NCBI RefSeq assembly: GCF_000266945.1
Contig: NC_018025.1
Location: forward strand, 3,290,001-3,354,000
Length of the DNA stretch: 64,000 nt
Reading direction: 5' to 3'
Source of the DNA: Desulfomonile tiedjei DSM 6799
GTDB lineage: Bacteria > Desulfobacterota > Desulfomonilia > Desulfomonilales > Desulfomonilaceae
A model generated the notes under the pieces. The model was not told the origin of the DNA. It did not search any database and saw nothing but the letters and a program-made list of their open reading frames with translations. Each line of letters begins with the position of its first letter. Within the stretch, counting starts at the first letter, position 1. Made by a program: the position numbers and the translations under genes. This document shows, in pieces, positions 20,671-25,792 of the stretch.

Positions 20671-20785
20671 TCTCTCTTGATTAGACACATTCCGAATTGG
20701 TGTGCCCATCGGTCGGGCTGCTTGCCGATGGGCCGGTTTTTGTGGCCGCTTGCCGGTTGTCCTATTCTTTTCAGGAGTATTCTCG

Positions 20786-22990
20786 ATGGATTGTCACTGC
20801 AAAGACCATCTTCCAGGTGAATGGCATTCTCATGAAGACTGCGACTGCAAGCACCATCACTCTCCCACCTATTCCTTTGTTATCACGAAAGTAATGGAAG
20901 AAGATCCCGGTGTAGGGACTGTCTATATTTCAAAAGCCTTTATGGAAAATCTCGAGGTCCAAGACGGAGACCCTGTGGAACTTCTGGGACCGACCACATG
21001 CGTGGTACAGGCCAAATCTCATCCCAATCCCTGGATTGATACCCGCATGATATCTATCGATAAGCACACGATGGAAAAAACGGGTGTCCAACTGTTCGGT
21101 CAGATAAGAATCAGAAAAACTGCCTGCGAAGAAGCCCAGTGCATCACTTTACAGGTTCCCCCGGGCAGCAATGTTACACGGCTCGGGCTTCGGGCCATGC
21201 TGGATCGGGCGGATGGAGCAGTGATAACGGGTAGAGACTATCTGACTCTCAAGGATCGGCGCGGACGGGAACTCCAATTTCGTATCGTAGAGAGCAACCC
21301 GGATCAGATGTCCAGGCTCAGTAAAAAGACGCTTATTCGTCTGGTGGACGAGAACGGGAACGAATACCTTGCTCGAAACGACACATCTTTTCAAGATGTT
21401 GGAGGATTAGACGAAGCAGTTAGCAAGGTGAAAGAAGTAGTTCAACTGCCGCTGAAACATCCGGAAATCTTCTATCGGCTGGGAATAGACCCTCCTCGAG
21501 GCGTGCTTCTCCACGGACCGTCAGGGACGGGAAAAACGTTGATAGCGAGGGCCGTTGCCGGAGAAACGGGATGCTACTTCAAGGCCATCAGCGGCACAGA
21601 GATCATGGACAAGTACTACGGCGAGAGTGAAGCCAAATTAAGGGCCGCGTTTGAAGAAGCGTATCAACATGCCCCTGCCATCATTTTCATCGATGAGATC
21701 GATGCCCTGGCACCGAGGCGTGACACTTCCGAAGGAGACGTGGAAAAGAGGGTCACGGCTCAGTTGCTGGCACTCATGGACGGGATGGAAGATCGCGGAC
21801 ATGTGATCGTGCTTGCGGCCACCAATCTGCCCAACGTGCTGGACAACGCACTTAGGCGACCCGGCAGATTCGACCGTGAGATACTGATCGGGGTTCCGGA
21901 TAAAGCAGGCCGTAAGAAGATACTCGAAATCCACACTCGAGACATGCCTCTAGGGACTGTGGACCTCGACGATATTGCACAGCGGAGCCACGGTTTCGTG
22001 GGAGCCGACATAAAGGCGCTCTGCCAGGAAGCCGGATTCAAAGCGCTTCGAAGAATACTTCCGGGCTTGGAACACACGGAACAGGAGCTTTCCGAAGATT
22101 TTCTCGAGGCCATTGCTGTTGAGACCAAAGACTTCGAAAGTGCGCTCAAGGAGATGCGTCCATCTGCAGGACGAAGCTTTGAGATCGATTTGAGAGACTG
22201 CGGCTGGGATCGAATCGCCGGATACGCGAAGGAAAAAGAGTTTCTCAAGGACATTGTTCTCTGGCCGCTCCGCAATAGCGAGACCCTTTTCGCCCTTGGA
22301 GTGAACCGCCCGGAAGGTCTCCTCATCACGGGTCCGTCCGGAATCGGAAAAACACTGATGGCCAGATCGCTTGGAAAAGAGAGCGGTTTCAACGTAATCG
22401 AGATTCGGGGACCTGAGCTGCTGTCCAAGTACATGGGCGAGAGTGAGCGAAATATCCGGGAACTGTTTCGGCAGGCTCGTCAAATGGCGCCGACGGTGCT
22501 CATATTGGATGGAATAGAAGCAATGGCCGTGTCGGGCTGGTCGGATTCCAAAGCGATCGACAGAATAGTGCATCAGCTCGTCACGGAGATGAACTCGGTT
22601 TCCGGTGAAAAACCTGTGCTCGTGGTGGGTGTGGCTACGTCTGCTAACGCATTGCCTCCGGCACTGAAAGCCACCGGGCGCTTCGGGTATGAACTCCCGC
22701 TCTCTCTGCCAACCGAAGAGGAACGGGCGGAAGTATTCAGACTTTATTTGCACTCCGGGAATGTGAGCTTCAAGGGGAATCTTCAGGAAATAGCAGCTAA
22801 CACCAACGGATTGACACCCGGTAATATAGAGGAAATATGCTGCAGAACTGTGCTTCAGGCCGCGCACTGCGCGATTGACTCGGATTCTGTTCCCCCCTGT
22901 TGTGTTGAAGTCACCGACACTGACGTGCTCAAAATGCTGGACCGATGGAAATTGATGACGGCTGATACCATTTCGCAATTATGCATATAA
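20786..22990 (+). CDS. CDC48/p97-type double AAA+ ATPase
   Basis: A 734-residue protein. An unusual His/Cys-rich leader (about residues 1-27, with HCKDH and CDCKHHH) precedes a double-psi barrel N-domain (30-200). D1 has Walker A GPSGTGKT (about 244), Walker B IFIDEID (about 303) and arginine-finger region LRRPGRFD. D2 has an intact Walker A GPSGIGKT (about 516), but Walker B is LILDGIEA, so the catalytic Glu is replaced by Gly, and the finger region reads LKATGRFGYE. So D1 probably hydrolyses ATP and D2 mainly binds it. Expected role: unfolding or complex disassembly. The start has AGGAG upstream. The last codons lie in a dispersed repeat. Confidence 0.88.
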   Translation: MDCHCKDHLPGEWHSHEDCDCKHHHSPTYSFVITKVMEEDPGVGTVYISKAFMENLEVQDGDPVELLGPTTCVVQAKSHPNPWIDTRMISIDKHTMEKTGVQLFGQIRIRKTACEEAQCITLQVPPGSNVTRLGLRAMLDRADGAVITGRDYLTLKDRRGRELQFRIVESNPDQMSRLSKKTLIRLVDENGNEYLARNDTSFQDVGGLDEAVSKVKEVVQLPLKHPEIFYRLGIDPPRGVLLHGPSGTGKTLIARAVAGETGCYFKAISGTEIMDKYYGESEAKLRAAFEEAYQHAPAIIFIDEIDALAPRRDTSEGDVEKRVTAQLLALMDGMEDRGHVIVLAATNLPNVLDNALRRPGRFDREILIGVPDKAGRKKILEIHTRDMPLGTVDLDDIAQRSHGFVGADIKALCQEAGFKALRRILPGLEHTEQELSEDFLEAIAVETKDFESALKEMRPSAGRSFEIDLRDCGWDRIAGYAKEKEFLKDIVLWPLRNSETLFALGVNRPEGLLITGPSGIGKTLMARSLGKESGFNVIEIRGPELLSKYMGESERNIRELFRQARQMAPTVLILDGIEAMAVSGWSDSKAIDRIVHQLVTEMNSVSGEKPVLVVGVATSANALPPALKATGRFGYELPLSLPTEEERAEVFRLYLHSGNVSFKGNLQEIAANTNGLTPGNIEEICCRTVLQAAHCAIDSDSVPPCCVEVTDTDVLKMLDRWKLMTADTISQLCI

Positions 22991-23270: not shown

Positions 23271-23645
23271 ATGCCATCCATAGAAGTCGTATATTATCAA
23301 AATGATAATAATGATGTTCCTATGAAAGACTGGTTGGAGTCCCTCAGTCGTCAACCGAAGCATAGGGCCAAGTGCATTGAATGGATTGGACTGCTGCGGG
23401 ATAACGGACGCGACTTGCGCCGACCCATAGCAGATTATCTGAGAGATGGCGTTTACGAATTACGGCCACGGATTCAGAAAATCCGGTATCGCATGTTATA
23501 TTTTTTTCATCTGAAAAAGAGGGCTGTAATTACTCATGGAATAACCAAACAGACTGACAAGGTTCCTCCGATAGCTGTAATGATGAAGAAGACGTACGAG
23601 AAAGCCCCTGATGAGCACAGTTACAGGGAGATAGATCATGAGTAG
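23271..23645 (+). CDS. HigB/Gp49-type RelE-superfamily toxin
   Basis: A 124-residue protein of the phage-derived Gp49-like/HigB group: MKDWLESLSRQPKHRAK, a central DNGRDLRRPIADYLRDGVYELRPR, then YRMLYFF and AVITHGITKQTDKVP, as in host-inhibition toxins. Family members cleave mRNA on the ribosome. A GAAGGAA ribosome site precedes ATG 23271. The stop overlaps the next gene by 8 nt, giving the toxin-first order typical of higBA. Its partner is unusual in carrying an HU domain. Confidence 0.88.
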   Translation: MPSIEVVYYQNDNNDVPMKDWLESLSRQPKHRAKCIEWIGLLRDNGRDLRRPIADYLRDGVYELRPRIQKIRYRMLYFFHLKKRAVITHGITKQTDKVPPIAVMMKKTYEKAPDEHSYREIDHE

Positions 23646-24258
23646 CAAAAAGATCGTCACTGATGCATACCAATGGTCGTACGATCGTTATTTAAGGGAT
23701 GAGCCTGAATTGGCGGAGATTGCTCGAGATATGAGGTCAAAGGCGGAGGAAGCCCGACAGATTTATGATGCTCGTGTTGAACTCCGACTGACCAGGGAAA
23801 AACTTGCAAGGCTCTCCGGTCTGACGCCGGCGATTATTGAAGATCTGGAGGAATCCGATTACGAGGGCGACTGGGCCCAAGCAATGGCTCAAGTGAAAAG
23901 AGCTCTCCATGGTCTCAAAAAAAGAGGTAATCTGGAATTCAAGAATAAGGGGGGACAGAAGGCTCGCGCCGGTAGATTCACAAAAGCTGAATTACTCTCT
24001 CAAATTGCTATCAGAACAAAGGTTTCACCAGAAGCAGTAAATGAGGTTCTGAAGTCGCTGATCGAAGCTATTTTGGAGGGCCTCAAAGAAAAGGGGGAGA
24101 TAACTATTCCCGCACTGGGGACATTCACAGTCGTCAAGAAACCGGCCCGCATTGACACTAAACCGCAGACAAAAACCGAAATCGAAACACCTGTCAGCAA
24201 AACGCCACATTTTAAGGCAGCAAAATCATTTCAAGAAGCAATAAAGAACGCCAAGTGA
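23638..24258 (+). CDS. HigA-like HTH antitoxin fused to an HU/IHF domain
   Basis: A 206-residue protein with two DNA-binding parts. Residues 45-75 (RVELRLTREKLARLSGLTPAIIEDLEES) are a Cro/C1-type helix-turn-helix as in HigA antitoxins. Residues 115-203 match HU/IHF: TKAELLSQIAIRTKVSPEAV, then GEITIPALGTFTVVKKPAR, an arm retaining KPQT, and FKAAKSFQEAI. A Gly/Lys linker joins them. HigA proteins usually end after the HTH (90-130 aa). The frame is continuous, and the gene overlaps the toxin by 8 nt. Expected role: neutralise the toxin and repress the operon; the HU part could bend operator DNA or bind the nucleoid. Domain calls are by motif, not search. Confidence 0.85.
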   Translation: MSSKKIVTDAYQWSYDRYLRDEPELAEIARDMRSKAEEARQIYDARVELRLTREKLARLSGLTPAIIEDLEESDYEGDWAQAMAQVKRALHGLKKRGNLEFKNKGGQKARAGRFTKAELLSQIAIRTKVSPEAVNEVLKSLIEAILEGLKEKGEITIPALGTFTVVKKPARIDTKPQTKTEIETPVSKTPHFKAAKSFQEAIKNAK

Positions 24259-24463
24259 ATCGCCCCGAAACAGGTTCTCGCGATGTCCCAGACATCCCAT
24301 CGTTCAAGAATCAGTCAAGCAGAACCGAGAATAGTGTTACCAAATTCTAACCGAACCAAATATTCGATCATTGTCTCAAAATGATATAGCTTAGAAGACA
24401 TTCAAGTTCGGTTAGCAGGAACTTGGGATGACAGTTGCCAAAATTCTTAATGGGGAGAACAAG

Positions 24464-24793
24464 ATGTCGTACTACGATGCAGGAGATCTTCCGAGATTTG
24501 GAGAAATTGGAGAAGAAGCACCCGAACTGTCTCGAAAATTCTTTGATTACTATCAGTCGGTGTTCGCCGAAGGTGAGCTTTCCGAAAGAGAAAAGGCTCT
24601 TATTGCACTTGCCGTGGCCCATGCTGTTCAGTGTCCGTACTGCATAGACGCGTACACGCAAGCATGTCTGGAAAAGGGTTCGCATATCGGCGAAATGACG
24701 GAAGCAGTACACGTTGCTGCGGCAATACGAGGCGGAGCTACTCTGATACACGGGCTACAGATGCGGAAGGTCGCATCGAAACTATCTCTGTAG
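24464..24793 (+). CDS. carboxymuconolactone decarboxylase-family protein
   Basis: A 109-residue AhpD/CMD-like protein. CPYCIDAYTQACLEKG holds the CxxC pair and downstream residues of the peroxidase-like branch, and ALIALAVAHAVQ leads into it. It resembles the 'arsenosugar biosynthesis-associated peroxidase-like' proteins found next to ArsS-type radical SAM enzymes, and exactly such a gene follows after 11 bp. The start at 24464 (MSYYDAGDLPRFGE) has GGGGAGA upstream. Likely role: thiol-based redox chemistry serving the radical SAM step. No arsM is present in the window. Confidence 0.85.
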   Translation: MSYYDAGDLPRFGEIGEEAPELSRKFFDYYQSVFAEGELSEREKALIALAVAHAVQCPYCIDAYTQACLEKGSHIGEMTEAVHVAAAIRGGATLIHGLQMRKVASKLSL

Positions 24794-24804
24794 GATGGTT
24801 CTCG

Positions 24805-25779
24805 ATGTCCGACTTACCTCATTTTTCTACTACGCTTGCGCATCACGATCTTGAGCTGAGGCGTGCCGAATTGAGTACGCTCCAGGTCAACATTGGATAT
24901 TTGTGCAATCAGGAATGTAGACATTGCCATCTCGACGCGGGTCCCACGAGAACTGAAATTATGAATTCGACGACCGTGGACGAGATCGTCGCGTTTGCAC
25001 AAAGGTATTCTTTTCAGGTAGCCGATATTACGGGAGGAGCTCCGGAATTAAATGCACACCTTCCTGAGTTCATCCTCAGACTTGCCCCCCTGGTGGACCG
25101 TCTCATGGTGCGCTGTAATCTCACTGCGCTGCATGATTGCAGCGAAAGATCGTCATTATTGATCGACTCGTTCAAACGTTGCGGAGTCGTCGTCGTAGCT
25201 TCGGTTCCATCCTCAAATCGAAGCCAATCTGAATCTCAGCGCGGTCCCGGCACTTTTGAAAGATCCATCCGGATGCTTCAGGGACTGAACAGAATCGGAT
25301 ATGGACAGCCGAGATCGGGCCTGGAACTCAACCTGGTGTGCAATCCTACCGGCGCTTTCTTGCCTCCTCCGGAAGCTCAACAGGAAAAGAAGATTCGAAG
25401 AGATCTGCTCCAGAAATGGGGAATTGTGTTCAACAACCTGTTTGTCTTTGCGAACGCCCCATTGGGAAGATTTCGGGAGTGGCTCGTGAGTTCCGGCAAT
25501 CTGGACAGTTATCTGCGTAAACTCGTGTCCGCTTTCAACCCATGCACCGTATCGGGGTTGATGTGTCGGAGCCTGATCTCGGTTGCATGGGACGGATACG
25601 TGTACGATTGTGATTTCAACCTGGCAAGAGGAATACCTGCAGGAAATAGCAGAATCCATGTTTCCGAACTTGCCGCCCCCCCTCCCCCGGGCTCATCCAT
25701 TGCCGTATCGGACCACTGTTATGCATGCACTGCGGGTGCGGGATTCACCTGAGGAGGATCGATTACCGCTCGAGTTTGA
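24805..25779 (+). CDS. arsS: ArsS-type radical SAM protein, probable selenoprotein
   Basis: Radical SAM enzyme with the cluster motif CNQECRHC (residues 34-41) followed by HLDAGPTRTE, as in the ArsS/'radical SAM-Cys-rich' family tied to arsenosugar synthesis. The first frame ends at TGA 25750 after HCYACTAGAGFT (315 aa). As I recall the family, members continue AGAGSSCGG; here TGA falls exactly on that last Cys and the next codons read GGSITARV before a second TGA at 25777. I therefore annotate 324 aa with Sec at 316. A SECIS-like hairpin follows. The start at 24805 has AGGAT. If no readthrough occurs, the CDS ends at 25752. Confidence 0.8.
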
Positions 25780-25792
25780 GCGGGCCTCTCCT
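25750..25792 (+). promoter_or_regulatory. UGA codon with SECIS-like hairpin
   Basis: TGA at 25750-25752 is followed by an inner perfect stem CCGCTC/GAGCGG (25766-25771 and 25778-25783) closing a 6-nt loop GAGTTT, and an outer stem AGGAG/CTCCT (25752-25756 and 25788-25792). The loop starts 20 nt after the UGA and opens with G, as in bacterial SECIS elements. SelB recognition is inferred. selA, selB and selC are not in the window. Confidence 0.6.

Follow-up and report, generated by a model that had tools for sequence, protein, structure and literature searches.

The arsS locus

The window, by which we denote the whole analysed stretch of 64,000 nucleotides from Desulfomonile tiedjei DSM 6799 (contig NC_018025.1, positions 3,290,001 to 3,354,000), contains a gene for a radical SAM protein of the ArsS type whose frame carries an in-frame UGA close to its end (Table 1). 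The frame opens with an ATG at 24805 and runs through ...HCYACTAGAGFT up to the TGA at 25750–25752, where the translated reading ends with DHCYACTAGAGFT. A conventional table-11 reading accordingly terminates at 25752 after 315 residues. Beyond this TGA, eight codons (GGSITARV) precede a second TGA at 25777–25779. The letters and coordinates thus agree with the original prediction, which placed the first TGA directly after CTAGAGFT and read GGSITARV before a second one.

Table 1. Features of the arsS locus in window coordinates
Feature	Position	Strand	Assignment or evidence
AhpD-like 'arsenosugar biosynthesis-associated peroxidase-like protein' (perox_w_seleSAM), upstream partner	24428–24793	+	TIGR04169
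arsS, radical SAM (seleno)protein, 324 residues, predicted Sec at 316	24805–25779	+	TIGR04167, PF04055, PF12345 (DUF3641)
In-frame UGA, residue 316, very probably read as selenocysteine	25750–25752	+	aligned Cys/Sec column
Possible SECIS lower stem, 6 bp (25752–25757 with 25787–25792)	25752–25792	+	single-sequence fold only
SECIS apical hairpin, CCGCUC(GAGUUU)GAGCGG, loop in parentheses	25766–25783	+	fold; arm co-variation; apical MFE
True stop UGA, within the 3' side of the apical hairpin	25777–25779	+	translation; hairpin comparison

The read-through product matches the NCBIfam profile TIGR04167 with 368.7 bits (cut-off 300; profile positions 2–303 of 303). The entry is named 'arsenosugar biosynthesis radical SAM (seleno)protein ArsS' (rSAM_SeCys), which bears out the family assignment that had been made from the letters alone. 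Pfam recognizes the Radical_SAM domain (PF04055) and DUF3641 (PF12345). The radical SAM motif CX3CX2C is present, and its cysteines (C34, C38, and C41) are invariant among 61 sequences. In total, the alignment features eight invariant Cys/Sec positions: C34, C38, C41, C254, C269, C305, C308, and C/U316.

The upstream partner lies on the same strand, only 11 bases ahead of arsS, and scores 187.8 bits against TIGR04169 (cut-off 120). A homologue of this gene adjoins arsS in 35 of 39 UGA loci and in 13 of 41 Cys loci. Further upstream, a toxin–antitoxin-like pair with an 8-base overlap occupies 23271–24258. Its first member is a Gp49/HigB-like protein, and the second combines an HTH-like N terminus with a complete bacterial HU domain (Bac_DNA_binding) at the C terminus, a fusion that seems uncommon for an antitoxin. 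The region 20702–22990 encodes a CDC48-like double AAA+ ATPase whose N-terminal part includes a stretch rich in Cys and His (MDCHCKDHLPGEWHSHEDCDCKHHH) that is possibly metal-binding.

Elsewhere in the same genome (G000), an arsM gene that scores over its cut-off is free of in-frame TGA codons (G000:C1:1803398–1804186). A gene for an ArsM-like methyltransferase at G000:C1:319411–320085 contains one in-frame TGA and may encode another selenoprotein.

The UGA occupies a Cys/Sec column

We compared the codon for residue 316 across 81 genes, comprising the window arsS and 80 relatives that a single scan of GTDB genomes had yielded. The column holds 40 UGA, 23 TGT, and 18 TGC codons and nothing else, and the motif CTAGxGxx(C/U)GG at the ArsS C terminus accordingly carries either predicted Sec (40 UGA genes) or Cys (41 genes). 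The UGA genes read GF(T/S)U, mostly followed by GG, and the Cys genes read GSSCGG or GF(T/S)C. The residues GGxI behind the position are mostly conserved in both classes alike. The alignment therefore confirms the proposed Cys column. It also provides the Cys homologues, 41 in number, by which a bacterial selenoprotein gene is recognized.

Taken at face value, the table-11 reading would make the UGA a real stop and end the enzyme at residue 315, at the cost of only a short tail. However, none of the 41 Cys homologues stops here; each reads across the position with CGG or similar residues, contrary to an alignment in which most homologues would end before it. Moreover, neither TAA nor TAG occurs at the position in any of the 81 genes, the codons past the UGA are conserved, and the arms of the hairpin that follows co-vary (see below). 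We therefore consider termination at residue 315 very improbable.

A TGA is also just one base away from TGT and TGC, so that the same letters could arise from an error in sequencing or from a Cys codon that had recently mutated to a stop. The 39 other UGA-bearing relatives, which stand at about 52–61% identity and share both the UGA and the co-varying hairpin, refute this explanation, to which we assign a negligible probability. Indeed, every ArsS copy of the taxonomic family (nine of nine, in eight genomes) contains the same single in-frame TGA, and the eight copies besides that of the window show a U in this motif when read.

In a tree calculated from the protein ahead of residue 316, the UGA genes form one strongly supported clade, within which five Cys genes are found in three places. 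The distribution would follow from a single gain of Sec and three later reversions to Cys, if the order of events is read correctly from the tree. Changes from Sec to Cys are called rare in a review (PMC13188914).

A co-varying SECIS-like hairpin follows the UGA

The published bacterial SECIS model (PMC13188914) describes a loop of 3–9 nt on an upper stem of 4–16 bp, with a G in the first two loop positions, a distance of 16–37 nt from the UGA, and an MFE of at most −7.5 kcal/mol. The apical hairpin of the window falls within all four published limits. It forms 6 bp with the loop GAGUUU or, in an alternative pairing, 7 bp with the loop AGUU, so that stem and loop measure 6–7 bp and 4–6 nt, respectively. 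The loop starts 19–20 nt past the UGA with a G in its first two positions, and hairpin and lower stem together reach −16.6 kcal/mol over 45 nt. Of the two-part hairpin originally proposed, the apical part with its G-first loop stands at this distance, whereas the lower stem derives from a single-sequence fold and is only a possible element.

By itself, the window hairpin beats chance only modestly (z = −1.71, with 14 of 200 shuffles folding as well). It is far above chance when compared across the 40 UGA-bearing genes. For this comparison, six pairs were counted with the loop left free at 3–9 nt, and the 3' arms were exchanged between genes as a control. In the 40 UGA genes, the arms of the same gene form on average 5.47 of 6 pairs, compared with 4.40 ± 0.12 with swapped arms (z = 9.2). 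This signal appears at loop offset 22 only and in UGA genes only. The six other offsets in UGA genes and all seven in Cys genes gave z values between −1.8 and 2.3, with the Cys genes at offset 22 showing a z of 1.2.

The arm exchange preserves relatedness only in part. Relatedness alone, however, does not give rise to such co-variation, since Cys genes and shifted offsets show none. When the UGA genes were thinned to 31 that are less than 70% identical in the stretch, 5.42 pairs still contrasted with 4.34 ± 0.14. In line with this, the MFE of the apical segment is −9.7 kcal/mol in UGA genes versus −1.9 kcal/mol in Cys genes (p = 4.5e-14). The hairpin thus both fits the published model and co-varies exclusively in the UGA genes.

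Pair counts at fixed length in an ungapped alignment (A1) had been weak, given that the apical loop ranges from 3 to 7 nt, and were replaced by the variable-loop test. No Rfam family matched the SECIS region even at an E-value of 10, an absence that says little.

Of the 40 UGA genes, 33 have their true stop codon (UGA, UAG, or UAA) at offset 21 from the start of the UGA, inside the hairpin. The true stop of the window arsS, at offset 27, likewise lies within the apical hairpin. Therefore, the same letters end the protein and form the Sec signal.

Selenocysteine machinery and a possible second decoder in the genome

The D. tiedjei genome (two contigs, the larger of 6,500,104 bases) encodes selA (599 bits), selB (404.5 bits), selD (367.6 bits, with an in-frame TGA of its own), and a tRNA-Sec (selC) with UCA anticodon (69.5 bits). 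A lack of this machinery, which would have spoken against Sec, is thus not what the genome displays. Within a phylum sample of 247 genomes, selA is found in all 19 genomes that carry a UGA-containing arsS and are at least 90% complete. This co-occurrence is consistent but discriminates little, because selA occurs in nearly all genomes of the phylum sample anyway (224 of 247).

Family membership, the Cys/Sec column, the co-variation of the hairpin, and the presence of the machinery are established directly, and all of them support Sec at the apparent stop of ArsS. From these we infer that the UGA at codon 316 is almost certainly decoded as selenocysteine.

The same genome possesses a second potential decoder outside of the window. 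Directly downstream of a 92-base tRNA-Cys with GCA anticodon (G000:C1:3562734–3562825) lies another selB, which scores 291 bits and shares 31% identity with the first; the whole locus spans G000:C1:3562734–3564838. Inspection of the tRNA sequence by eye shows U73, an acceptor stem of 8 bp, and a bulged A in the T stem. The pairing corresponds to selC*/selB*, an arrangement known from Syntrophobacterales and Desulfobacterales (PMC7609411), and tRNAs of this kind translate Sec UGA codons with Cys (PMC11415595). A DNA search revealed similar tRNAs, with GCA or UCA anticodon, in 27 of the 247 phylum genomes. In many of these relatives, a selB lies adjacent to the selC*-type tRNA.

Accordingly, UGA 316 might be read as Cys by the selC* tRNA-Cys together with SelB*, either wholly or at scarce selenium. 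Besides the tRNA–selB pair and its described activity, the column itself would permit such decoding, as Cys is tolerated there in 41 homologues and in three islands within the UGA clade. On the other hand, by the same DNA search the GCA-type tRNA occurs in only 2 of the 24 phylum-sample genomes with a UGA-containing arsS (G000 and G212), the UCA type being found in G103 and G078, which argues that the arsS UGA is independent of the GCA tRNA. Furthermore, the dedicated selA, selC, and selD genes are intact in D. tiedjei. On balance, we consider Cys decoding unlikely. The same low expectation applies to a dual codon that would be translated as Sec in the presence of selenium and as Cys, via the selC* tRNA-Cys and SelB*, in its absence. 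If true, one SECIS would serve two elongation factors, and the arsenic enzyme would be active in both states.

Predicted structure and proposed mechanism

The predicted fold of ArsS has a pLDDT of 92.4, and its nearest solved counterparts are radical SAM enzymes, mostly of the SPASM/twitch type, and include SkfB, BlsE, SuiB, and EpeE. C254-x14-C269 and C305-x2-C308 resemble the established four-ligand pattern of twitch-type auxiliary clusters, and these invariant cysteines fit an auxiliary Fe–S cluster. With these four positions as probable cluster ligands, residue 316 is most likely an extra selenol, located on a mobile C-terminal tail. Residues 319–324 of this tail show a pLDDT under 50, and because of this low confidence the selenol of Sec316 has no assigned position in the model.

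ArsS enzymes use SAM and a methylated arsenical to make 5'-deoxy-5'-dimethylarsinoyl-adenosine. The selenol may serve a redox or As(III)-binding role in As–C bond formation.

ArsS is a radical SAM enzyme whose C-terminal domain (DUF3641) is twitch/SPASM-like. In the proposed mechanism, SerRS would load serine onto the selC tRNA-Sec (UCA), and SelA would convert the tRNA-bound serine into Sec using selenophosphate from SelD. SelB would then bind the apical hairpin and deliver Sec-tRNA to UGA 316, allowing translation to run on for eight codons until the second UGA. In the resulting protein, Sec316 would take the place of an invariant Cys, and its selenol would participate in making the As–C bond of 5'-deoxy-5'-dimethylarsinoyl-adenosine.

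Comparison with known systems

TIGR04167 is a predicted selenoprotein family, termed 'Radical SAM domain protein, GxxU' and credited to a 2005 survey of bacterial SECIS elements, with AAR34688.1 as the reference selenoprotein (PMC13188914, PMC9312934). The window arsS is a further member of this already predicted family, and the discovery at the family level is not new. Among the papers searched, none connects Desulfomonile tiedjei with selenoproteins. For annotation, selenocysteine at the UGA means that the correct product has 324 residues with Sec at 316. As foreseen, standard gene calling would instead yield the 315-residue protein and lose a position occupied by Cys or Sec in all homologues read. 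Sec in ArsS would also tie arsenic chemistry to selenium supply.

With its TIGR04167/GxxU relatives, the window gene shares the score over the cut-off, the CX3CX2C motif, DUF3641, the Sec/Cys column, and the AhpD-like neighbour. It differs in its apical stem, which is CCGCUC/GAGCGG rather than the usual NNNCCU/AGGNNN, and in its stop, which most relatives have two codons earlier. Nothing essential is different. The Cys form of ArsS, as in Gammaproteobacteria and Bacteroidota for example, shares the fold family and the conserved residues, but has Cys at the column, mostly SSC in place of FTU, and no co-varying SECIS hairpin.

Finally, D. tiedjei possesses a counterpart of the selC*/selB* tRNA-Cys recoding systems (PMC7609411) in its tRNA-Cys (GCA) with the adjacent second selB, a separate locus about 250 kb from arsS. 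Because both are found in the same genome, arsS is a clean gene for asking what the tRNA-Cys/SelB* pair reads.
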